Part shown: positions 3,434 to 54,517 of the stretch, piece after piece
Numbering within the stretch: position 1 is the first letter of the stretch
Layout: the number at the start of each line of letters is the position of its first letter
Origin: Paenibacillus sp. FSL M7-0420
Lineage (GTDB): Bacteria; Bacillota; Bacilli; Paenibacillales; Paenibacillaceae
Assembly (NCBI RefSeq): GCF_038002345.1
Contig: NZ_JBBOCJ010000001.1
Span: 5,146,001-5,210,000, forward strand
Direction: 5' to 3'
Length of the DNA: 64,000 nucleotides
Notes under the pieces: model-generated
The model's database searches: none
Told to the model about the DNA's origin: nothing
What the model saw: only the letters and a program-made list of their open reading frames with translations
Made by a program: the position numbers and the translations under genes

Positions 3434-5123
3434 AATGAGCTTCTCCCTCCTTTTCAATACGAATCCGGTAACAGGTGCCTTCGGACAGCACGGAGTCTAC
3501 GGATAACCCGGAGTCCTTGCCAAAGTACAGGCGCAGCCGCTGATTCACATTCCTTAGCCCGGTTCCGAGCTGTTCATTGCTGATGATATTGTCCTCGATA
3601 TGGCGGCGGACCGCTCCGAGCCGTTCCTCCGTCATGCCGATTCCGTTATCCTTCACGGTAATCAGAAGATACGAAGCCTCTTCTTCGGCGGCAACCGAGA
3701 TGATGCCGGGCCTCAGGCTCGGTTCAATACCATGCTTAATGCAGTTCTCCACCAGCGGCTGCAGAATCATCCTTGGCAGCCGGTATCTGCGCGCCTCTGC
3801 CGTGACACCGAACTCGAAGGTGATTTCTTTTTTGCGCAAATGAACCATATGCAGATAATGCTCGACGAAATCCAGTTCATCCTGAAGCGTCGAATCGAGC
3901 TGTTCAATCTTATGAATGTAACGGCAGTAGGAGGCCAGATGCAGCGTCATCGCGGTGACCGCATGATAATCCTCGATGCTTGCTTTGCTCTGAATGAAAT
4001 TCAGGCAGTTATAGAGAAAATGCGGATTAATCTGCGCCTGATACTGCTTCAGCTTCGCTTCCTTCACTTCAATCTCGCCCAGGAGAACCTGCTCTATCAG
4101 TGTCTGGGTATTCTCCGCCATCCGGTTAAAGGAATTGCCGAGCACCTTGAACTCATTGACCTGCAGATCGACGGCACGGCTGGAAAAGTCGCCCCGGTCG
4201 AACCGGTCAATCGCCTTCCGCAGCATGATAACCGGCTTCTGGACCTGCTTGCGGAGCAGCAGCGTGTAGAACATAATACCCACCAGCACCACCAGTACCG
4301 CATAGAGGAACAGCCGGTTATTGCGGTTAATCGGCTCGATATACTGGCGCTTGGGATAGGCGTCAATGAAATACAAATCCAGCATATCTGACTTCATGTA
4401 GTTAATCAGGTACTCTGCACGGTTCTCTGTAGCGGAGATGGTCCCCCTGTTCCCGCTAATCTGGGGACTGATCGACTGTAACAGCTCCTGCGGAAACGCC
4501 GCCCCCGGCTGGATAAAGGCCCCCTCGGAGGCATCGTATAACAGCGGCATACCGGAGACATACTGCTCCATCATTTTCACCAGATTATCCAGAGAAATCC
4601 TGACTTCAATTAACAGCGAGCTGATATGACTGCGCATGATGTTGGAGTAATATCCCTTGCCTTCCTTATCCATGTGCAGCACCCAGCGGTTCCGCGCCTG
4701 CTCCGGGGGGCTGAAGGTGCTGAAGGAGAAGGAGGAATCCGAGGATACCGTCTCTTTCTCATCCTCATAGTACAGAATCACTGTATTCTTCCAGGAGGTG
4801 GAGGCTGTGTTCAGGGCCAGCTTATCGATGATAGTCAGCTTCATCTCATATTTGGAATATTGATCCCCGAACTTCAGAATATAAGGATATCCACGCACAG
4901 ACTGGTCCTGTGACAAAGTAATGGTATTTGTCAGCACCTGTTCAAATTGCGTGGATAGCTGGGAGGTCATGAATTCAACCTCGTACATTTTATTTTTTCT
5001 CAGCTCATTCTGAATGTCCTTCACGTTCAGCCGGTAGATGAGCCAGAACGCACCTACGATGATCAGCAGCATCAGCATCAGGACAAACGACAGCCACTGA
5101 AAGATAGACAGACGATATTTCAC
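3411..5123 (-). CDS. YesM-type sensor histidine kinase
   Basis: Membrane sensor kinase partner of the YesN-type regulator; 570 aa. A membrane helix near residues 10-35 is followed by an extracellular sensor region, a second helix near 275-295, then a HAMP segment. The kinase core has the His in INPHFLYN, the N-box LVENCIKHG, the G1 box DNGIGM and GTGLRNVNQRL. I chose the GTG at 5121-5123 because GGAGGAG lies 5 nt upstream; an overlapping ATG TGA is out of frame. It lies between the binding-protein gene and the regulator gene, the usual order for Lpl-type importers in this group, and probably senses the imported sugar or the loaded binding protein. Confidence 0.92.
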   Translation of the reverse strand: MKYRLSIFQWLSFVLMLMLLIIVGAFWLIYRLNVKDIQNELRKNKMYEVEFMTSQLSTQFEQVLTNTITLSQDQSVRGYPYILKFGDQYSKYEMKLTIIDKLALNTASTSWKNTVILYYEDEKETVSSDSSFSFSTFSPPEQARNRWVLHMDKEGKGYYSNIMRSHISSLLIEVRISLDNLVKMMEQYVSGMPLLYDASEGAFIQPGAAFPQELLQSISPQISGNRGTISATENRAEYLINYMKSDMLDLYFIDAYPKRQYIEPINRNNRLFLYAVLVVLVGIMFYTLLLRKQVQKPVIMLRKAIDRFDRGDFSSRAVDLQVNEFKVLGNSFNRMAENTQTLIEQVLLGEIEVKEAKLKQYQAQINPHFLYNCLNFIQSKASIEDYHAVTAMTLHLASYCRYIHKIEQLDSTLQDELDFVEHYLHMVHLRKKEITFEFGVTAEARRYRLPRMILQPLVENCIKHGIEPSLRPGIISVAAEEEASYLLITVKDNGIGMTEERLGAVRRHIEDNIISNEQLGTGLRNVNQRLRLYFGKDSGLSVDSVLSEGTCYRIRIEKEGEAHSANSAGR

Positions 5124-47249: not shown

Positions 47250-48974
47250 TCAAGAGGCTTGCGTCGCATACAATCGTGCATAAATGCCGCCGCTACGCAG
47301 CAGTTCCTCATGCGTACCCGTCTCGGCTATCTCTGTGCCCTCCAGCACGACGATCTGGTCGGCATGACGGACCGTGGATAGCCGATGGGCAATCACCAGT
47401 GTTGTGCGATCCTTCGATATTTCGTCCAGCGCCTGCTGGATCTCTTGCTCGGTCTTGGTATCCAGCGCCGAAGTCGCTTCATCCAGAATGAGGATTGGCG
47501 CATTACGCAGAATCGCCCGTGCTATCGAAATCCGCTGTTTCTGCCCTCCTGACAGCCGTACACCGCGTTCACCAATCACCGTATCGTAGCCTTGCTCCAT
47601 CTGTGCTATGAAATCATGCGCTTTCGCCGCTTTCGCTGCGGCCATCACATCTTTCCCGGTTGCATCCGCCCATCCATAAGCGATATTGTCATACACGGAG
47701 CCGTCAAACAGGAAGGTGTCCTGCAGCACCATCGAGATATTGTCACGCAGGCTGGAGAGCGTCACATCCCGAATATCAATACCATCCACTCGAATCGAAC
47801 CGGCCTGAGGGTCGTAGAATCGGTTAACGAGACTGGCCAATGTCGTCTTTCCTACACCGGTTGTACCTACAAGCGCGACCGTCTTTCCGGGATCAATAGT
47901 CAGGTTCAGCCGTTCTAGTACAGGCGCACCCTCCTGATATACGAAGGTGACATCTTGAAAAGATATCTGTCCTTGTACACGCGGTAAGCTGACTGCGTCT
48001 CGCTTCTCCTGTATATCCTCCTCTTCTTCCAGCACCTCGTATACCCGTTTAAGACCTGCGGCGGCTCGCCCGGTCATCTCCACCAGATTGGAGAAGGACT
48101 TTACCGGCTGATAGAACATACCCAGGTAGGCGATGAATCCGATGATATCAGCAATGCTGACCTCGCCTGTTGCCATTAATCTGCCGCCTAGAATCACGAC
48201 AAACACAGTACCCAGCGCAGTGACAAAGGCTAACAACGGCACAGACGTTTCATAGAACAGACTGGCGCGCAAATAGGTCTTCGTATGTTTCATAGCCAGA
48301 CGAGATACGTTGCCCTGCTCCTCCTCCTGCCGATTAAAAATTTGGATTTCCTTCATGCCCGCCAAGTTCTCCTGCACCTTGCCGGAGATTTCTCCCCGCG
48401 TTTTGGAATTCTCTCCCCACAGCGGCGACAAATGCTTGCTCTGCCATATCGTAATCGCAAGCAGCAACGGAATCGTAATCAGACTGATCAGTGCCAGCTT
48501 CACATTAATCGTCAAGAGAAGAATGCCTACTCCGATAAAGGTCAATGCGTTGATGATAAAGTCAGGAATAGCATGGGCAATGAAAATTTCAGCTTCCATC
48601 GCATCATTCACAACGCGCCCGGTCAAGTCACCCGTCCGGCTTCGGTGGAAATAGCGCAAGCTCATCTGCTGATATTTGCTATACAATCTTGTTCTTAAAT
48701 CTGCTACATAATGAAGTGCCGCATAATGGTTCATATAGCCGGCCAGTGATGTTCCGATGGCTTGCAGACAGGTGGCTCCAAGCAGCAACAAACCAATCTT
48801 CAGCGCTTCCGCGGCAAACTGGCTGCTGCCTTCGGTAGCCAATTGGGTCAACGACCGAAGCGCCCAGGGCAGATAAAACCCGGCCATTGTGGCCATTACG
48901 ACACCGGCAAATCCAATCCCTAACTGCAACCAGTATTTCCGTGCGCCCAGCAGGACACGCCATGCGGTTGTCAT
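47250..48974 (-). CDS. ABC transporter, membrane-ATPase fusion, in siderophore operon
   Basis: 574-aa half-transporter, probably a homodimer. Six helices lie in about 20-300. The nucleotide-binding domain (about 335-574) has Walker A VGTTGVGKTTL, signature LSGGQKQRISIARA, Walker B ILILDEATSALDT and switch IAHRLSTV. Its ATG overlaps the stop of the FecE-type gene (ATGA), so it is the last gene of the iron operon. It could export a siderophore or move a ferri-siderophore; the sequence does not decide. Confidence 0.88.
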   Translation of the reverse strand: MTTAWRVLLGARKYWLQLGIGFAGVVMATMAGFYLPWALRSLTQLATEGSSQFAAEALKIGLLLLGATCLQAIGTSLAGYMNHYAALHYVADLRTRLYSKYQQMSLRYFHRSRTGDLTGRVVNDAMEAEIFIAHAIPDFIINALTFIGVGILLLTINVKLALISLITIPLLLAITIWQSKHLSPLWGENSKTRGEISGKVQENLAGMKEIQIFNRQEEEQGNVSRLAMKHTKTYLRASLFYETSVPLLAFVTALGTVFVVILGGRLMATGEVSIADIIGFIAYLGMFYQPVKSFSNLVEMTGRAAAGLKRVYEVLEEEEDIQEKRDAVSLPRVQGQISFQDVTFVYQEGAPVLERLNLTIDPGKTVALVGTTGVGKTTLASLVNRFYDPQAGSIRVDGIDIRDVTLSSLRDNISMVLQDTFLFDGSVYDNIAYGWADATGKDVMAAAKAAKAHDFIAQMEQGYDTVIGERGVRLSGGQKQRISIARAILRNAPILILDEATSALDTKTEQEIQQALDEISKDRTTLVIAHRLSTVRHADQIVVLEGTEIAETGTHEELLRSGGIYARLYATQAS

Positions 48975-49828
48975 GTGGCAATCGCCTCCTTCTGCCCCTT
49001 AGCCTCTGGGAATCCTTGATCTACTTCTTGGTCTCTACGCTTATCACGCAATAGCTCGTACGTCACATACACCGGCCGCCCTGTTCGTGGTTCCAGCATA
49101 ATCTCGGCATCAATGGCAAACACCTCACGCAGCGTCTGTACCGTCATTACACGCTCTGGCGAGCCATGCTCCACCACCTGGCCCTCACGAATCGCCACCA
49201 TATAGTCGGAGAAGCGTGCTGCCAGATTCAGGTCATGCAGTACCATCACAATCGTCACGTGCTGACTGCGATTCAGGTCATAGAGCAGTTCCAGTACTTC
49301 GAGCTGATGCGCCAGGTCCAGATAGGTGGTGGGTTCATCCAGCAGGATCAGATCGGTCTGCTGGGTGAGCGCCATCGCAATCCATACGCGCTGACGCTGA
49401 CCGCCAGAGAGCGTATCCACCTCACGATGCTCGAACGCTGTAAGCTGGGTAACCGCTAAGGCCCAGGCTACTACTTGCTTATCCTCTTTGGAGAGCTTGC
49501 CGAAACCCCGTTGATGAGGAAAACGTCCATAGGCGACTAACTGGCCGACCGTCAAACCGCTCGGTGCGGTTGGCGTCTGCGGCAGAATCGCCATCTGCTT
49601 GGCGACTTCCTTGGTGGACAGTGTGCGGATATCGGCACCATTCAGATAGACCGTACCATTATTCGTCTTGAGCAGCCGGCCGACTGCCTTGAGTACAGTT
49701 GATTTGCCGCATCCATTGGGACCAATAATCGAGGTGATCTGTCCACGCGGAATCTGCAAATCCAGTTCTTTGACGATAAGCGTGTCATTATAGGCAATAT
49801 CAATTTGCTCTGCTGTAATACTTTCCAT
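48971..49828 (-). CDS. Iron-siderophore ABC ATPase (FecE/FhuC type)
   Basis: 285-aa ATPase that powers ferri-siderophore import. Walker A GPNGCGKST, Q-loop MAILPQTP, signature LSGGQRQRVWIAMAL, Walker B LILLDEPTTYLD and switch VLHDLNLAARF are all present. AGGAGG precedes the ATG. It lies 9 nt after the second permease gene. Confidence 0.95.
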   Translation of the reverse strand: MESITAEQIDIAYNDTLIVKELDLQIPRGQITSIIGPNGCGKSTVLKAVGRLLKTNNGTVYLNGADIRTLSTKEVAKQMAILPQTPTAPSGLTVGQLVAYGRFPHQRGFGKLSKEDKQVVAWALAVTQLTAFEHREVDTLSGGQRQRVWIAMALTQQTDLILLDEPTTYLDLAHQLEVLELLYDLNRSQHVTIVMVLHDLNLAARFSDYMVAIREGQVVEHGSPERVMTVQTLREVFAIDAEIMLEPRTGRPVYVTYELLRDKRRDQEVDQGFPEAKGQKEAIAT

Positions 49829-49837
49829 GACGTCCTC

Positions 49838-50851
49838 CTAATTGGCCTTCGCTAGTAAATAAAGAAAGTACGGAACACTGATGACCGTAATGACGATTCC
49901 CGTCGGCACATCTCCCCCCAGGTTAACCGTGCGCGTAATCGTGTCTGCCAGCACCACGACTAATCCGCCGGTCAGGCTGGCAGCCGGAATGAGCAATTTG
50001 TGATCGGGCCCGACCAGTTTTCTTGCCATATGCGGAGCGATCAAGCCAACGAAGAAGAAGCTTCCGCCAACAGCCACAGCGCCAGAGGATAAAGCAACAG
50101 CAGCGATCGACAACCCCAAAAACTGCCGCTTCACAGAAAGACCCAGCCCTTCTGCCGTCTGATAGCCCAGATGGAGGGTGTTCAGCATCCGGGACTTGTA
50201 GAAAATATAGCCGATTAAAATCAAGACCCATGGTGCCAGTACGGAAATATAGCGCCAATCAGCGCCCCACAAGCTTCCCGCCAGCCAATTCAGCATGAAG
50301 TCCATCTGCGAATCATCCAGCTTGAGTGTCAGGAAGGTGGTCAGCGCCCCATACCCGCTTCCGAGCGCGACCCCGGTTAAGATCAGACCGATTGGCGAGA
50401 GGTTTCGCCCGCGGTGATAAGATAATAAGAAGATCAATCCCGCCGCCAGCAGGCCGCCAACAAAGGCCAGCAGCGGCAGGGCAATGAAGGAACTTTTTCC
50501 TGTCGATGCGATGAATACTACGAAGAACAGGACAAACAAACCTGATCCTGAACTAATCCCCAGTGTCCCCGGACTAGCCATGTCGTTGCGCAGCAAACTC
50601 TGCATCACGACCCCACCCGCTCCCATTCCCAGACCTACCAAGATCGACAGTACGATTCGTGGCATTCGAAAATCGAACAGGATCAGATTGTGCTTGCCGG
50701 TACCGTTACCCAGGAGAACGTTCAGCACTTCCAGCGGTGAAAGATTCATCTTGCCGGAATTCATGCTAATGACAGCAAACATAAGGATGAGCAGCACAAG
50801 CACTACATTGATGAGGATACCCCGTTGCACCGTATAACGCTGCTTGATCAT
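49838..50851 (-). CDS. FecCD-family siderophore permease 2
   Basis: 337 aa with about ten membrane helices. Landmarks are FRMPRIVLSILVGLGMGAGGVVMQSLLRNDMASPGTLGISSG and the ATPase-contact region FVGLIAPHMARKLVGPDHK. It overlaps the upstream permease gene by 4 nt (ATGA). With permease 1 it forms the transmembrane heterodimer. Confidence 0.95.
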   Translation of the reverse strand: MIKQRYTVQRGILINVVLVLLILMFAVISMNSGKMNLSPLEVLNVLLGNGTGKHNLILFDFRMPRIVLSILVGLGMGAGGVVMQSLLRNDMASPGTLGISSGSGLFVLFFVVFIASTGKSSFIALPLLAFVGGLLAAGLIFLLSYHRGRNLSPIGLILTGVALGSGYGALTTFLTLKLDDSQMDFMLNWLAGSLWGADWRYISVLAPWVLILIGYIFYKSRMLNTLHLGYQTAEGLGLSVKRQFLGLSIAAVALSSGAVAVGGSFFFVGLIAPHMARKLVGPDHKLLIPAASLTGGLVVVLADTITRTVNLGGDVPTGIVITVISVPYFLYLLAKAN

Positions 50852-51873
50852 TCGAATTCCCTCCTTTGCCTGCGGGCGAGGAAGAGAAAGTACGGCACAC
50901 CAATGATGGAAAAAATAATGCCAATCGGTGTTTCGAACGGCCTATTAATCAAACGGCCAGCCAGATCGGCCGATACGGTCAGCAACGCGCCATATAGCGC
51001 AGCCGCCGGAATAATGTACCGATAGTCGACACCGACCATATATCGCACAATATGCGGGGTAATCAGACCCACAAAACCGATTGGGCCAACCACGACAACA
51101 GCCAATCCAGTCAGCACGAGCACGATAATCGTCGATAGCCCCTTGACCAGTCCGCTACGGATACCGAGTCCACTTGCCACATCCTCTCCCAGACTGAGCA
51201 GTGTAACGGAAGGAGCCAGCGCCAGCGCCAGCAGTATACCACCAACAAATAAGGGGGAGATAATCAGTAGTTCCCCCCACTTGGCCCCCGCTGTACTGCC
51301 TGCCGTCCAGAATGCCAATGCCCGGCCCAGGTTGTAATTGATCGCCAAATACTGACTGAGTGCGCCAAACAGCATGGAGATGGACAGCCCTGCCAGTACC
51401 AGCCGCTGAGGCGTCATTCCGCGCTTGCCCAGTGACGCAATGAAGTAAGTGATCCCGGTCGCGAGCGCTGCTCCCAGACATGCAAACAGCATCATTTGCC
51501 CATACGAATAACCCGGTAGAAACGCCAGGCATAGCGCAATCGCGAATGCTGCCCCGGAGCTGATCCCCATCAGCCCGGAGTCGGCCAGCGGATTGCGCGT
51601 TGTCCCCTGCATGATCGCACCACAAACCGCAAGGCTACATCCGACGATCAGATCGGCTACAGTACGCGGAAGACGTAGGGTTTGAATAATTTGATGTTCA
51701 GTGAGCGTTGGATCAAACCGGAAAATAGCCTCCCATGCAGTCGCTAACCTCATATCAGCGGCACCAAAGCTAATCGACGCCGCTGACATGAGAACCGTTA
51801 ATCCAAGCCCTACCACCATGTAGATGGTGAAGTTCACCGCCCCACGGCGATTTTGTTCAGGCTTGTTTTTCAT
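50848..51873 (-). CDS. FecCD-family siderophore permease 1
   Basis: 341 aa with about ten membrane helices. Landmarks are LRLPRTVADLIVGCSLAVCGAIMQGTTRNPLADSGLMGISSG and FVGLITPHIVRYMVGVDYR. AGGGGACC precedes the ATG. It lies 17 nt after the AraC/binding-protein gene. Confidence 0.95.
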   Translation of the reverse strand: MKNKPEQNRRGAVNFTIYMVVGLGLTVLMSAASISFGAADMRLATAWEAIFRFDPTLTEHQIIQTLRLPRTVADLIVGCSLAVCGAIMQGTTRNPLADSGLMGISSGAAFAIALCLAFLPGYSYGQMMLFACLGAALATGITYFIASLGKRGMTPQRLVLAGLSISMLFGALSQYLAINYNLGRALAFWTAGSTAGAKWGELLIISPLFVGGILLALALAPSVTLLSLGEDVASGLGIRSGLVKGLSTIIVLVLTGLAVVVVGPIGFVGLITPHIVRYMVGVDYRYIIPAAALYGALLTVSADLAGRLINRPFETPIGIIFSIIGVPYFLFLARRQRREFE

Positions 51874-51890: not shown

Positions 51891-52886
51891 TTATTTAGCT
51901 AATGCCAGCAATTGATTGATAATATGATCAATCAATGCACTGGAAGTCATTATATCCGTGGACCAAGATAGCGATGAACCCACCGTTACGATCCGGTTAT
52001 GTTGCACAGCGGGTAGTGATTTCCAAACCGCATGATCAGCAGGAACTTCCGTATCTCCTAAGGCGATCAAATAATCCCCCATGTAAGCGGGCAAGACCTC
52101 CATAGAGATCTGTCCCCAATATTTATCCGCGTCAATAATATCAGATTGAACTTTTGACGGTGCCTTCATTTGAAGCTGATTATACATAAGCTCGCCAACC
52201 GCATGCTTGGCTCCAGCGATGGAGTTCGTTTTATCACCGAATTCTCCCATAGTAATCGTCACGTCTGCAAGGCCGGCATTCTTAAGGGATAGCTTCGCTT
52301 CTTCGATTTTGTTAGCATAAGCATCCAAAACAGCCTCAGCCTCTTTCGGCTTATTCAGAACATCGCCAATGAAATGGATACGCTCCTCTGTGGTCATATC
52401 ACCATAAGGGACATAAATGGTCGGGGCAATTTTGGATAAATCCTCATAATTCTCTTCGCCCCATGCTAATATGATCAGATCAGGCTCAAGCGTCATGACA
52501 TCTTCCGGCTCCATTTTTATGTTAACTGAATCTTTAATCTCGTTAGAATAGACCGCCTCTGTCTCGCCCTTTGTCGCTCTCGCCACACCTAGAGGAGTTA
52601 CACCCAAAGCTACCACATCACCAACCAGATAATCGACTACAACACGCTGAGGGTTGCCCGGCACCTCAACATCACCCTTTACTGTAGATATCTTTCTGGT
52701 CTGCGAGACTGCTTCTGAAGCTTTCGTCTCCTGTACTTCCGGTTGTGTCGTCTGCCCGGTCTCCGCAGGCGGATTCACCGTTCCCCTATTATTCGCTGGC
52801 GTCCCCGACGTACATGCCGTCAGCAGCAGCATCAGGCTCATCGCCGCCACAAAGATCATTTCTTTACTTCGTACTTGTCCAAACAT
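51891..52886 (-). CDS. Nested start: stand-alone siderophore-binding lipoprotein
   Basis: Within the fused frame, an ATG at 52884-52886 with GGGGAA 7 nt upstream gives a 331-aa protein of ordinary size for siderophore-binding lipoproteins, starting MFGQVRSKEMIF and with LTAC at its residue 25. A promoter with a Fur box lies just upstream (52938-52966). Separate production of the binding protein from this start is inferred and would explain the lipobox in the middle of the fusion. Confidence 0.65.
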   Translation of the reverse strand: MFGQVRSKEMIFVAAMSLMLLLTACTSGTPANNRGTVNPPAETGQTTQPEVQETKASEAVSQTRKISTVKGDVEVPGNPQRVVVDYLVGDVVALGVTPLGVARATKGETEAVYSNEIKDSVNIKMEPEDVMTLEPDLIILAWGEENYEDLSKIAPTIYVPYGDMTTEERIHFIGDVLNKPKEAEAVLDAYANKIEEAKLSLKNAGLADVTITMGEFGDKTNSIAGAKHAVGELMYNQLQMKAPSKVQSDIIDADKYWGQISMEVLPAYMGDYLIALGDTEVPADHAVWKSLPAVQHNRIVTVGSSLSWSTDIMTSSALIDHIINQLLALAK

Positions 52887-53858
52887 GCTTGATTCCCCAT
52901 CTCTATAAGACTTGACTAGACTCGCCAGTTCCCTCTCATTGTATTGAAGATGAGAATCATTATCAATACCATCAACCTGCATAGGTAGTGCGTTTATTTT
53001 CCGATAATCACTCGGCGTCATCTTGTAATACTTCTTAAACATCCGAAACAAGTTCTTCTCATCAGCAAATCCAGATCCTGTTGCTATCTCTTTAATGGTT
53101 GCCTCTGTATACTTCAAGTCATGACAGGCAGCTTCAATCCTTCTCTGAATGAGATACTCCTGTAAGCTCATCCCTTCCTTCTTTTTGAACAACCGCGTTA
53201 ATTGCCCGCCACTGATCCCAAACATAGCGGCAATATCCTGGAACATAATCGGCTCCCTGTAATGCTTATCGAGATATACCTTCGCAGAACAGGCTGGATT
53301 GGGCTGGAGATAGCGAATCTCGCCACCCTCTAAATCTCTGAACACCCTATGAATCAATTGATATAGATAAGCTTTGGCCTGTAGCTGATCCATCGCCTTG
53401 CCGCGGTTCCAGTCATTCATCATCTGTTGAAACCAGTCGAGCAGCAAGATAGGATTACTTGGTGTATAACCAAACTGTTGAACAAATGGATTGACTTGCT
53501 CCAGTAGTTGCTGCAGGTACCTCCTGGAGAAGAGAGGGGATTCAGCTTTATACAACACCATGAAGGTCTTCACCTTCTCCCCTGTAGACGAAATACTAAG
53601 CAGGCTCCCCTTGCCGCCGTGAACCAAACCGAAGCGTTCCATCCCAAATGTGGTCTCATTCAGTTGAATTTGCGCTTCCCCTCCACATACATAGATAAGC
53701 ATGCTGCTAGGCATTTTATATTGCTCCAATGGATATTGGGGCGCTACATGATGTAAGCGTACATCTATCAATGTAATGATTGAACGTGCCCAGATGCGGG
53801 CCATCATGTCGATCATCTCCGGTGTATAGGCATGGCTTGCTTCTGATTTCTCTTGCAT
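51891..53858 (-). CDS. AraC regulator fused in frame to a siderophore-binding lipoprotein
   Basis: One open frame of 655 codons joins two proteins. Residues 1-190 form a cupin-like ligand region. Residues 195-295 are an AraC double HTH (DIAAMFGISGGQLTRLFKKKEG; IATGSGFADEKNLFRMFKKYYKMTPSDYRK). A 30-residue hydrophilic linker follows. From residue 325 the chain reads like a complete lipoprotein: helix MIFVAAMSLMLLLTAC with lipobox Cys349, then a Peripla_BP_2 domain (VVVDYLVGDVVALG; LEPDLIILAWGEENYEDLSKIAPTIYVPYGD). B. subtilis Btr also joins AraC to such a domain but, as I recall, without a signal sequence. A Fur box precedes the gene. GAGGGAG lies 9 nt before the ATG. Confidence 0.88.
   Translation of the reverse strand: MQEKSEASHAYTPEMIDMMARIWARSIITLIDVRLHHVAPQYPLEQYKMPSSMLIYVCGGEAQIQLNETTFGMERFGLVHGGKGSLLSISSTGEKVKTFMVLYKAESPLFSRRYLQQLLEQVNPFVQQFGYTPSNPILLLDWFQQMMNDWNRGKAMDQLQAKAYLYQLIHRVFRDLEGGEIRYLQPNPACSAKVYLDKHYREPIMFQDIAAMFGISGGQLTRLFKKKEGMSLQEYLIQRRIEAACHDLKYTEATIKEIATGSGFADEKNLFRMFKKYYKMTPSDYRKINALPMQVDGIDNDSHLQYNERELASLVKSYRDGESSMFGQVRSKEMIFVAAMSLMLLLTACTSGTPANNRGTVNPPAETGQTTQPEVQETKASEAVSQTRKISTVKGDVEVPGNPQRVVVDYLVGDVVALGVTPLGVARATKGETEAVYSNEIKDSVNIKMEPEDVMTLEPDLIILAWGEENYEDLSKIAPTIYVPYGDMTTEERIHFIGDVLNKPKEAEAVLDAYANKIEEAKLSLKNAGLADVTITMGEFGDKTNSIAGAKHAVGELMYNQLQMKAPSKVQSDIIDADKYWGQISMEVLPAYMGDYLIALGDTEVPADHAVWKSLPAVQHNRIVTVGSSLSWSTDIMTSSALIDHIINQLLALAK
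52938..52966 (-). promoter_or_regulatory. Internal promoter with Fur box inside the fused gene
   Basis: Minus-strand TTGATA (52961-52966) and TACAAT (52938-52943) are 17 nt apart. TGATAATGATTCTCA (52951-52965) overlaps the -35 and matches the 7-1-7 Fur consensus TGATAATnATTATCA at 13 of 14 defined positions. It lies 52 nt upstream of the nested lipoprotein start. Confidence 0.7.
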
Positions 53859-53880: not shown

Positions 53881-53901
53881 TGATATTGATTATCAATATC
53901 A
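53881..53901 (-). promoter_or_regulatory. Fur box upstream of the siderophore operon
   Basis: GATATTGATTATCAATATC (53882-53900) is a perfect 9-1-9 palindrome and contains two overlapping 7-1-7 Fur sites, each with one mismatch. It lies 23 nt before the AraC-fusion start. Iron repression by Fur is inferred. Confidence 0.85.
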
Positions 53902-54223
53902 TATTTCATGAGGTAAGTATATCATCATTAAGTAAACTTGGGTTGTTTTGTAGGAAGGGTTAGGCTCGATATCATCAAAATCGTAGAACCCTTAGCACGC
54001 TATCCTCGATTTTCAAATATGGCAGTTTAAGTTCACCCTCAACCATTTCCTCCAATCATTCAGACCGTTAATATTCGTTTCCCCTATATCCATACTCATC
54101 GTTTATCCCTCGTTACAAAGGGCTTATTTCATTATGAATTTTGTGTGCTATGGGCATATGCCGTGTTGGATATGGGTTATAGTCCATAGACTGTTGACGA
54201 GATATTATTTGAGGAGGTTACTT
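53902..54223. other. Gene-free region between iron operon and small-protein genes
   Basis: About 320 bases with no gene I can support. The part near 54130-54223 must hold the promoter of the 97-aa protein; no clear boxes are seen. Confidence 0.4.
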
Positions 54224-54517
54224 ATGGAAACGAATTATCAACAAGTTGCCTGGAATTGTATGAATAAGTATGTCGGTATTACGACAACGGACGGTCAGTC
54301 TCACGACGGGTTTATTGCTCAAATCGATCAGAACAACGTTATACTTGCCATTCCCACAAATGAAATGATGGGCCAGATGAACGGAATGCCTGCTAACGCA
54401 ACAGCCTACAGACAATTCGGATACTATCCGGGATTCTACCCGCGCCGCCGCTTTTATCCAAGACCGATTCCCTTTGGTGCCATTACAGCTTTATACTTGC
54501 TTCCATTTTTCATTTAA
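54224..54517 (+). CDS. Small protein, 97 aa, unknown function
   Basis: Starts METNYQQVAW with GAGGAGG 6 nt upstream. Residues 8-40 (MNKYVGITTTDGQSHDGFIAQIDQNNVILAIPT) form a small beta-barrel-like pattern similar to that of YuzF-type spore-former proteins. The tail has a Tyr/Arg/Pro-rich region (GYYPGFYPRRRFYPRP) and a short hydrophobic end. It precedes the DUF2642-like gene by 66 nt, so the two are probably a pair. A spore or envelope role is a guess. Confidence 0.65.
   Translation: METNYQQVAWNCMNKYVGITTTDGQSHDGFIAQIDQNNVILAIPTNEMMGQMNGMPANATAYRQFGYYPGFYPRRRFYPRPIPFGAITALYLLPFFI

Follow-up and report, generated by a model that had tools for sequence, protein, structure and literature searches.

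We analyzed a 64,000-nucleotide stretch of the genome of Paenibacillus sp. FSL M7-0420 (contig NZ_JBBOCJ010000001.1, positions 5,146,001 to 5,210,000), hereafter the window, in which a reading frame of 655 codons on the minus strand (51891-53858) runs uninterrupted from an ATG at 53858 and joins an AraC-type regulator, a linker, a lipoprotein signal and a siderophore-binding domain. The AraC-type helix-turn-helix (HTH) occupies residues 209 to 287 (52998-53234, minus strand; Pfam HTH_18, 1.6e-22) and is followed by the linker (residues 289 to 324; 52887-52994, minus strand), the signal segment (residues 325 to 348; 52815-52886, minus strand) and a lipobox, LTAC (52812-52823, minus strand), whose Cys349 (codon 52812-52814) is invariant across 41 of 41 aligned family members. 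The siderophore-binding domain itself covers residues 413 to 629 (51972-52622, minus strand; Pfam Peripla_BP_2, 8.5e-18). The solved chains nearest to it in sequence are 8xet, 3hxp, 5fly, 3g9q and 3mwf, the first three of these being hydroxamate-siderophore binding proteins. The original prediction for this locus had placed an AraC regulator and a siderophore-binding lipoprotein in a single frame, with a full lipoprotein signal and Cys349 between the two parts, and had set the protein apart from Btr-type fusions; the open reading frame (ORF), its Pfam domains, the invariant Cys and the comparison with Btr bear this out. An AraC HTH followed by a Peripla_BP_2-like domain within one chain is indeed the Btr-type order. 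The NCBIfam model TranspRegBtr, however, matches residues 41 to 288 with 61.8 bits against an equivalog cut-off of 900, and an export signal, absent from Btr-type regulators, stands between the parts. By these two features the protein is not Btr, yet it probably works like Btr. The hydrophobic segment between the parts has a mean Kyte-Doolittle value of 1.99 over 19 residues in the representatives of the family defined below, and among 13 Btr-like control ORFs only one, L109, contains a 19-residue stretch above 1.6 (2.27).

The arrangement is widespread. The window genome holds three further full-length copies at 31 to 34% identity, four such genes altogether, and matches were found in 41 of 100 genomes of the genus (E ≤ 1e-60), in 118 of 295 genomes of the taxonomic family, from 11 of 19 genera (E ≤ 1e-55), and in 42 of 398 genomes at the level of the class (E ≤ 1e-45), 20 of these 42 lying outside the family. 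Among 14 named loci, 12 are 78 to 90% identical over the whole length (including those of Paenibacillus silagei, tritici, eucommiae, gorillae, paeoniae, xylanexedens, radicis and amylolyticus), and the remaining two comprise a locus at 40% identity and another that matches over 125 residues only; L185, one of the 12, carries a frameshift in its own AraC part. The three paralogs and the relatives in the genus, the family and the named loci rule out a sequencing error or a missed stop codon. A stop between the parts in relatives, which would have spoken against the original prediction, is not what was seen: among the relatives examined one, L170, has a frameshift at this place. All family counts below refer to 143 distinct ORFs that scored as fusions carrying a lipobox in mid-frame, or to 63 representatives of them with less than 80% mutual identity; the set wrongly includes a Btr-like ORF with a chance lipobox-like match (L174) and one containing Ns (L159), both of which were counted as misses. 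Adjacent pairs of fused regulator-lipoprotein genes occur in L076, L089, L226, L230, L250, L252, L253 and L254, suggesting tandem duplication. A Paenibacillus polymyxa record (L188:4001-4378, L246) has only a 125-residue ORF matching the regulator N terminus, with no fused frame behind it.

The junction between the two parts carries the elements of a gene start. A Fur box (TGATAATGATTCTCA on the coding strand, 14 of 15 positions; 52951-52965, unstranded) overlaps a proposed -35 element, TTGATA (52961-52966, minus strand), which lies 17 nt from a proposed -10 element, TACAAT (52938-52943, minus strand), both matching the consensus. Behind them come a Shine-Dalgarno-like TGGGGA (52894-52899, minus strand; predicted duplex energy -5.5) and an internal ATG, that of Met325 (52884-52886, minus strand). 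While correct about the frame, the signal and the contrast with Btr, the original prediction had missed this promoter, Fur box, Shine-Dalgarno sequence and start. In the clade of the window gene (18 distinct sequences, all required to have a Fur core of at least 12) most Fur-box positions are invariant, the -35 element is nearly so, five of the six -10 positions are invariant and the sixth is shared by 16 of the 18, the Shine-Dalgarno-like sequence is conserved and the internal ATG is invariant. The elements of this clade stand in a different register from those of the rest of the family, the Fur box covering the -35 element and the spacer and the start following 64 nt later. Between the -10 element and the Shine-Dalgarno sequence, a CTAG...CTAGTC sequence (52914-52928) is also well conserved in the clade.

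The same kinds of element recur in most of the collected ORFs. The linkers mostly encode a peptide like Tyr-Ile-Asp-Asn-Asp-Asn-His-Tyr-Gln-Tyr, which is the in-frame reading of TGATAATNATTATCA, the 7-1-7 Fur box consensus. An internal Fur core of at least 14 of 15 positions is present in 123 of the 143 ORFs (53 of the 63 representatives), and none was seen in 152 null windows, at 108,159 other positions of the same ORFs or in 241 control ORFs of 350 or more residues. The internal start codon is ATG in 116 ORFs, GTG in 18 and TTG in 9, with a mean Shine-Dalgarno energy of -7.86 versus -2.54 at 4535 other in-frame start codons. It follows the Fur box at 25 nt in 89 of 138 cases and at 64 nt in 17, and precedes the lipobox Cys by 21 to 25 residues in 140 of the 143 ORFs. 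Upstream of the Fur box, 80% of 60 representatives have a -10 element with at least five of six matches, a frequency that drops to 5% in null windows taken from the same ORFs and unmatched in A+T; for this and the codon counts below, L061, L173 and L174 (Fur core under 12) were left out of the 63. In the main family a TATAAA just after the Fur box was set aside as a -10 element because the transcript would then start within the Shine-Dalgarno sequence. In the window gene a Fur box thus lies upstream of a start that has a Shine-Dalgarno sequence and stands 24 residues before the Cys, as in a Fur-regulated lipoprotein substrate-binding gene, and from these elements the second half can, judging from the DNA, be made as a separate ordinary lipoprotein.

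Codon usage and substitution patterns indicate that the linker is both coding and control DNA. In the motif, 262 of 268 Asp, Asn, His and Tyr codons end in T (178.9 expected; z = 10.8), compared with 134 of 178 in the upstream linker, and Gln is encoded by CAA in 37 of 42 cases against 36% elsewhere. The synonymous substitution rate (dS) of the linker is 0.113 in 16 orthologs including the window gene, versus 0.37 in their AraC part. Pooled over 12 ortholog groups (90 of the 143 ORFs), dS is 0.089 for the promoter and Fur box, 0.19 for the linker, 0.49 for the AraC part and 0.50 for the binding domain, and the ratio of nonsynonymous to synonymous rates (dN/dS) of the linker is 0.64; the linker is therefore maintained as DNA and hardly as protein, yet it stays open. 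In 12 clusters it forms the sole deep trough of synonymous change along the ORF, with the lowest difference around the Fur box (0.13 to 0.25 versus 0.29 to 0.42 in other intervals). Codon choice and this trough rule out a Fur box arising by chance from a linker rich in Asp, Asn, His and Tyr.

Genes outside the arrangement provide a comparison. All 10 free lipoprotein genes of the window genome that were examined have a Fur core of 12 to 15 near their start, and 13 of 13 Btr-like ORFs lack an internal core above 12, so that, apart from its unusual location, the nested half is a lipoprotein gene of the ordinary Fur type. Outside the taxonomic family, an internal core of at least 12 occurs in 25 distinct lipobox ORFs, and only 7 of the 25 reach 14 (duplicates were left out of this tally, as were L238 and L240, which have no lipobox, and the broken L242). 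The frame as a whole is also preceded by a Fur-like site: in the window it is palindromic (TGATATTGATTATCAATATCA; 53881-53901, unstranded), and an upstream core of at least 13 of 15 is found in 48 of the 63 representatives versus 4 of 1260 shuffles, the representative of the window clade scoring 13.

When the representatives were aligned on their -10 element, a second conserved pattern became apparent, AT..TCCA, present in two copies at a distance of 22 bp, of which the second extends into the -35 element. Repeat halves are more alike within genes than between them (7.80 versus 5.93 of 13) in 50 of the 60 representatives, 10 being left out for a weak promoter fit. This within-gene co-variation has a z score of 8.3 at a shift of 22 and of at most 2.7 in absolute value at the 32 other shifts tried, and among 20 representatives with less than 50% identity the observed value was reached in 0 of 20,000 permutations. 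Since 22 is not a multiple of 3, the copies lie in different codon frames and a protein repeat is excluded as the cause. Adjacent to the -35 element, AraC-type regulators usually have direct half-sites separated by some two helical turns, and this is the spacing found in the family, for a set of 50 representatives (of 60) that was tested as a whole. In two loci without nesting, L160 and L163, a Btr-like regulator is accompanied by a separate lipoprotein gene, and the same repeat stands in the intergenic DNA before the latter, with scores of 19.4 and 18.7 (95% of shuffles fall under 8.5 and 5.9, respectively). Of 46 representatives (4 of the 50 were left out for misregister), 17 have G at half-site position 10, and 16 of these 17 have Ala or Gly at HTH residue 267, compared with only 1 of 29 representatives without this G; the window gene has Glu there. 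A copy of the operator upstream of the regulator frames was not found (mean of 15.44 versus 15.49 for shuffles in 45 genes). In most of the family the repeat is probably the operator of the regulator itself, which, judging from the co-variation, would bind it; the paralog in L017 is one of the members that carry it.

The frame uniting both parts seems to be under selection, and the long chain is therefore probably made. A search with the AraC part only, blind to the sequence downstream, gave matches that, among those listed, lie mostly in frames of more than 600 residues; 28 of the listed matches had not been listed by the genus search. Of the 20 of these that were inspected, 13 are intact fused ORFs with a lipobox, 4 are Btr-like, 1 is split, 1 is fused but broken in the binding part and 1 is fused and contains Ns. 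Among the matches listed and inspected there is a single frameshift between the parts, in L170 (802-2777), a natural split in which the end of the regulator overlaps the start of the lipoprotein in another frame and which is one base shorter than its near relatives between the Fur box and the Shine-Dalgarno sequence. Other broken copies have their breaks in the AraC or the binding part (L082, L111, L122, L157, L185, L241, L242 and L251). The linkers of 62 representatives underwent at least 23 length changes on a tree, all in frame, in a set that had been picked for open frames, and the other two forward frames of 63 linkers contain 83 and 357 stops. L238 and L240 are fused and have no lipobox; L238 reads His at the expected Cys position, and L240 has a separate lipoprotein gene right behind the fused frame. 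Both keep the promoter (by eye), a Fur-like box of 13 of 15 and the repeat, with scores of 18.5 and 21.2 that have no shuffle comparison. In these two loci the nested lipoprotein has been lost but the long chain has not, which one would expect were the long chain important in its own right, and they are possible intermediates with Btr-like forms.

We propose, with a probability of roughly 0.7, that the locus is one frame with two products, a free lipoprotein under Fur control and a long, Btr-like regulator that shares the binding protein as its sensor. Judged by length, the two would have masses of about 33 and 73 kDa, respectively. Under iron starvation, Fur would leave both the upstream and the internal box. 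The upstream promoter and start would then give the long chain, in which the binding protein forms the C-terminal sensor of an AraC regulator, with domains ordered as in Btr, while the internal promoter, putatively of the sigma-A type with a Fur operator, would give a normal lipoprotein substrate-binding protein from Met325 and, in the window, would also serve the two FecCD permease genes and the ATPase gene that follow. For the majority of the family, the regulator would probably sit on the 22-bp repeat, which lies within the regulator's coding sequence and just ahead of the internal -35 element, and with ferri-siderophore bound and Fur off it would switch on the nested gene. The promoter elements, their conservation and the constraint on the DNA are observed; from them we infer that the linker is active as a promoter, and the long chain is presumably made and senses. 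One ligand-binding sequence would be shared by sensor and transporter, and the two could therefore not drift apart in specificity. As a guess, an uncleaved or slowly processed signal might hold the long chain in the membrane, with the DNA-binding part inside and the binding protein outside. That a regulator gene holds in frame its own operator, a Fur box, a promoter and its whole target gene, the same codons serving as the sensor of a membrane-spanning regulator and as a free lipoprotein, is a tentative extension with chances somewhat under even.

Other readings account for parts of these data. A membrane-spanning sensor chain of ToxR/CadC-like topology, with no separate lipoprotein, would be consistent with the retained open frame and the hydrophobic segment between the parts (mean of 1.99), but the Fur box, Shine-Dalgarno sequence, start codon and synonymous trough at the junction would be left unexplained, as would the invariant lipobox Cys, which makes it very improbable. 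The opposite view, that two ordinary genes lie side by side, joined by a frame that is open by accident, and that the long chain has no function, agrees with a linker whose amino acids are hardly constrained (dN/dS of 0.64) and with the intact halves of the split L170. It fits poorly with one frameshift only between the parts among the AraC-only matches listed and inspected, with at least 23 linker length changes that all keep the frame (by construction of the set of 62), with the 83 and 357 stops in the other two frames and with the persistence of the fusion in L238 and L240 after loss of the lipobox, and we consider it rather improbable.

Two further alternatives concern the fate of the long chain and overlap with the proposal of two products. 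Lgt and signal peptidase II might process it, the released regulator working alone; the canonical lipobox and its invariant Cys suit this idea, but the short form needs the lipobox anyway, so that its conservation is no evidence for processing, which we judge unlikely. The long chain might instead be cytosolic like Btr, ignoring the buried signal and sensing imported ferri-siderophore. The Btr-like domain order and the fused, lipobox-less L238 and L240 with their repeat speak for a cytosolic chain, and the strongly hydrophobic signal segment of most representatives speaks against it; we see it as a minority possibility that deserves some weight. The two designs put forward in the original prediction, a chain spanning the membrane or a regulator released by signal peptidase II, may apply to the long product only.

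Several observations weigh against the proposal of one frame with two products. The main set of ORFs was found with the fused protein, which favors open frames, and the AraC-only search corrects this bias only among the matches listed, 8 of which, left out of the inspection, lie in frames of 579 to 609 residues, a Btr-like length. Both halves of L170 are intact, so the fusion is not essential there. Three of the fused ORFs lack a Fur box (L061, L046 and L173, with 10, 10 and 8 of 15), and the window gene combines a Fur box of 14 of 15 with only a modest Shine-Dalgarno sequence (-5.5). Synonymous resampling of a single gene is weak, as 1927 of 12,100 resamplings reached the observed score. As for the operator, the 22-bp repeat was looked for in the window gene and its clade and was not found, only two (L020 and L023) of the ten free lipoproteins of the window genome exceed 95% of shuffles, and the independent changes linking half-site and residue 267 (3 to 0, P = 0.25; 1 to 0 on a second tree) are too few.

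Downstream of the frame in the window, and in the same direction, lie a FecCD permease that starts 17 nt behind the frame (50848-51873, minus strand; PF01032, 1e-89) and is likely cotranscribed with it, a second FecCD permease (49838-50851, minus strand; PF01032, 2.4e-85) and an ATP-binding cassette (ABC) transporter ATPase (48971-49828, minus strand; PF00005, 2.7e-32). Directly behind these uptake genes there is an exporter-type ABC transporter with membrane part and ATPase in one chain (47250-48974), and a 127-residue ORF with no Pfam match stands beside the regulator (54134-54517). Elsewhere in the window genome, two ORFs that look transposase-like by eye (L019:1918-3159 and L027:2790-4031) have identical first 45 residues and lie near genes for siderophore-binding proteins.

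Among the closest known systems is Btr (YbbB), the one-component bacillibactin regulator of Bacillus subtilis, in which an AraC DNA-binding part is likewise followed by a sensor resembling siderophore-binding proteins. Here, unlike in Btr, the two parts are separated by a full lipoprotein signal and a control region, and the codons of the sensor double as those of a transport lipoprotein. Ferric-hydroxamate substrate-binding lipoproteins of the FhuD/FtsB/SirA type are nearest in binding-domain sequence among solved chains and share the lipobox and a Fur box before the start, but in the present case the promoter and start are inside the coding sequence of another protein. Membrane-spanning regulators of the ToxR/CadC type have a winged-helix DNA-binding part first, then a hydrophobic segment and then the sensor; the order of parts is similar, but the family described here has an AraC fold, a lipobox and a nested gene, and its topology is putative. 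Genes nested in frame within a longer one, with a promoter or start of their own and a short product encoded by the 3' half, are known as well; the internal control region of the present family includes a Fur box and, in most members, a site that is probably the operator of the regulator whose codons directly precede it in the frame. Btr is reported to have a FeuA-like sensory domain (PMC9609785). A literature search gave no recognized description of this arrangement, most subscription papers lying outside its coverage and some queries returning mostly off-topic results. The parts are of known kinds (AraC regulators with a binding-protein sensor, Fur-controlled lipoproteins and internal promoters), and their combination appears new.

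If the proposal is right, a single binding-protein sequence for both sensor and transporter would be a simple way of locking the two to the same ligand, and a transport lipoprotein would be hidden inside the AraC-type genes of many Paenibacillaceae. For Paenibacillus, the reported number of such binding proteins per siderophore cluster is the highest of any genus, a ratio of 29.43 (PMC13293324). The variants of half-site and HTH would offer ready material for working out what determines AraC specificity. L238 and L240 suggest that cytosolic Btr-like regulators can arise by loss of the signal, or the reverse, and the nested arrangement may thus offer a route by which Btr-like regulators and lipoproteins interconvert.

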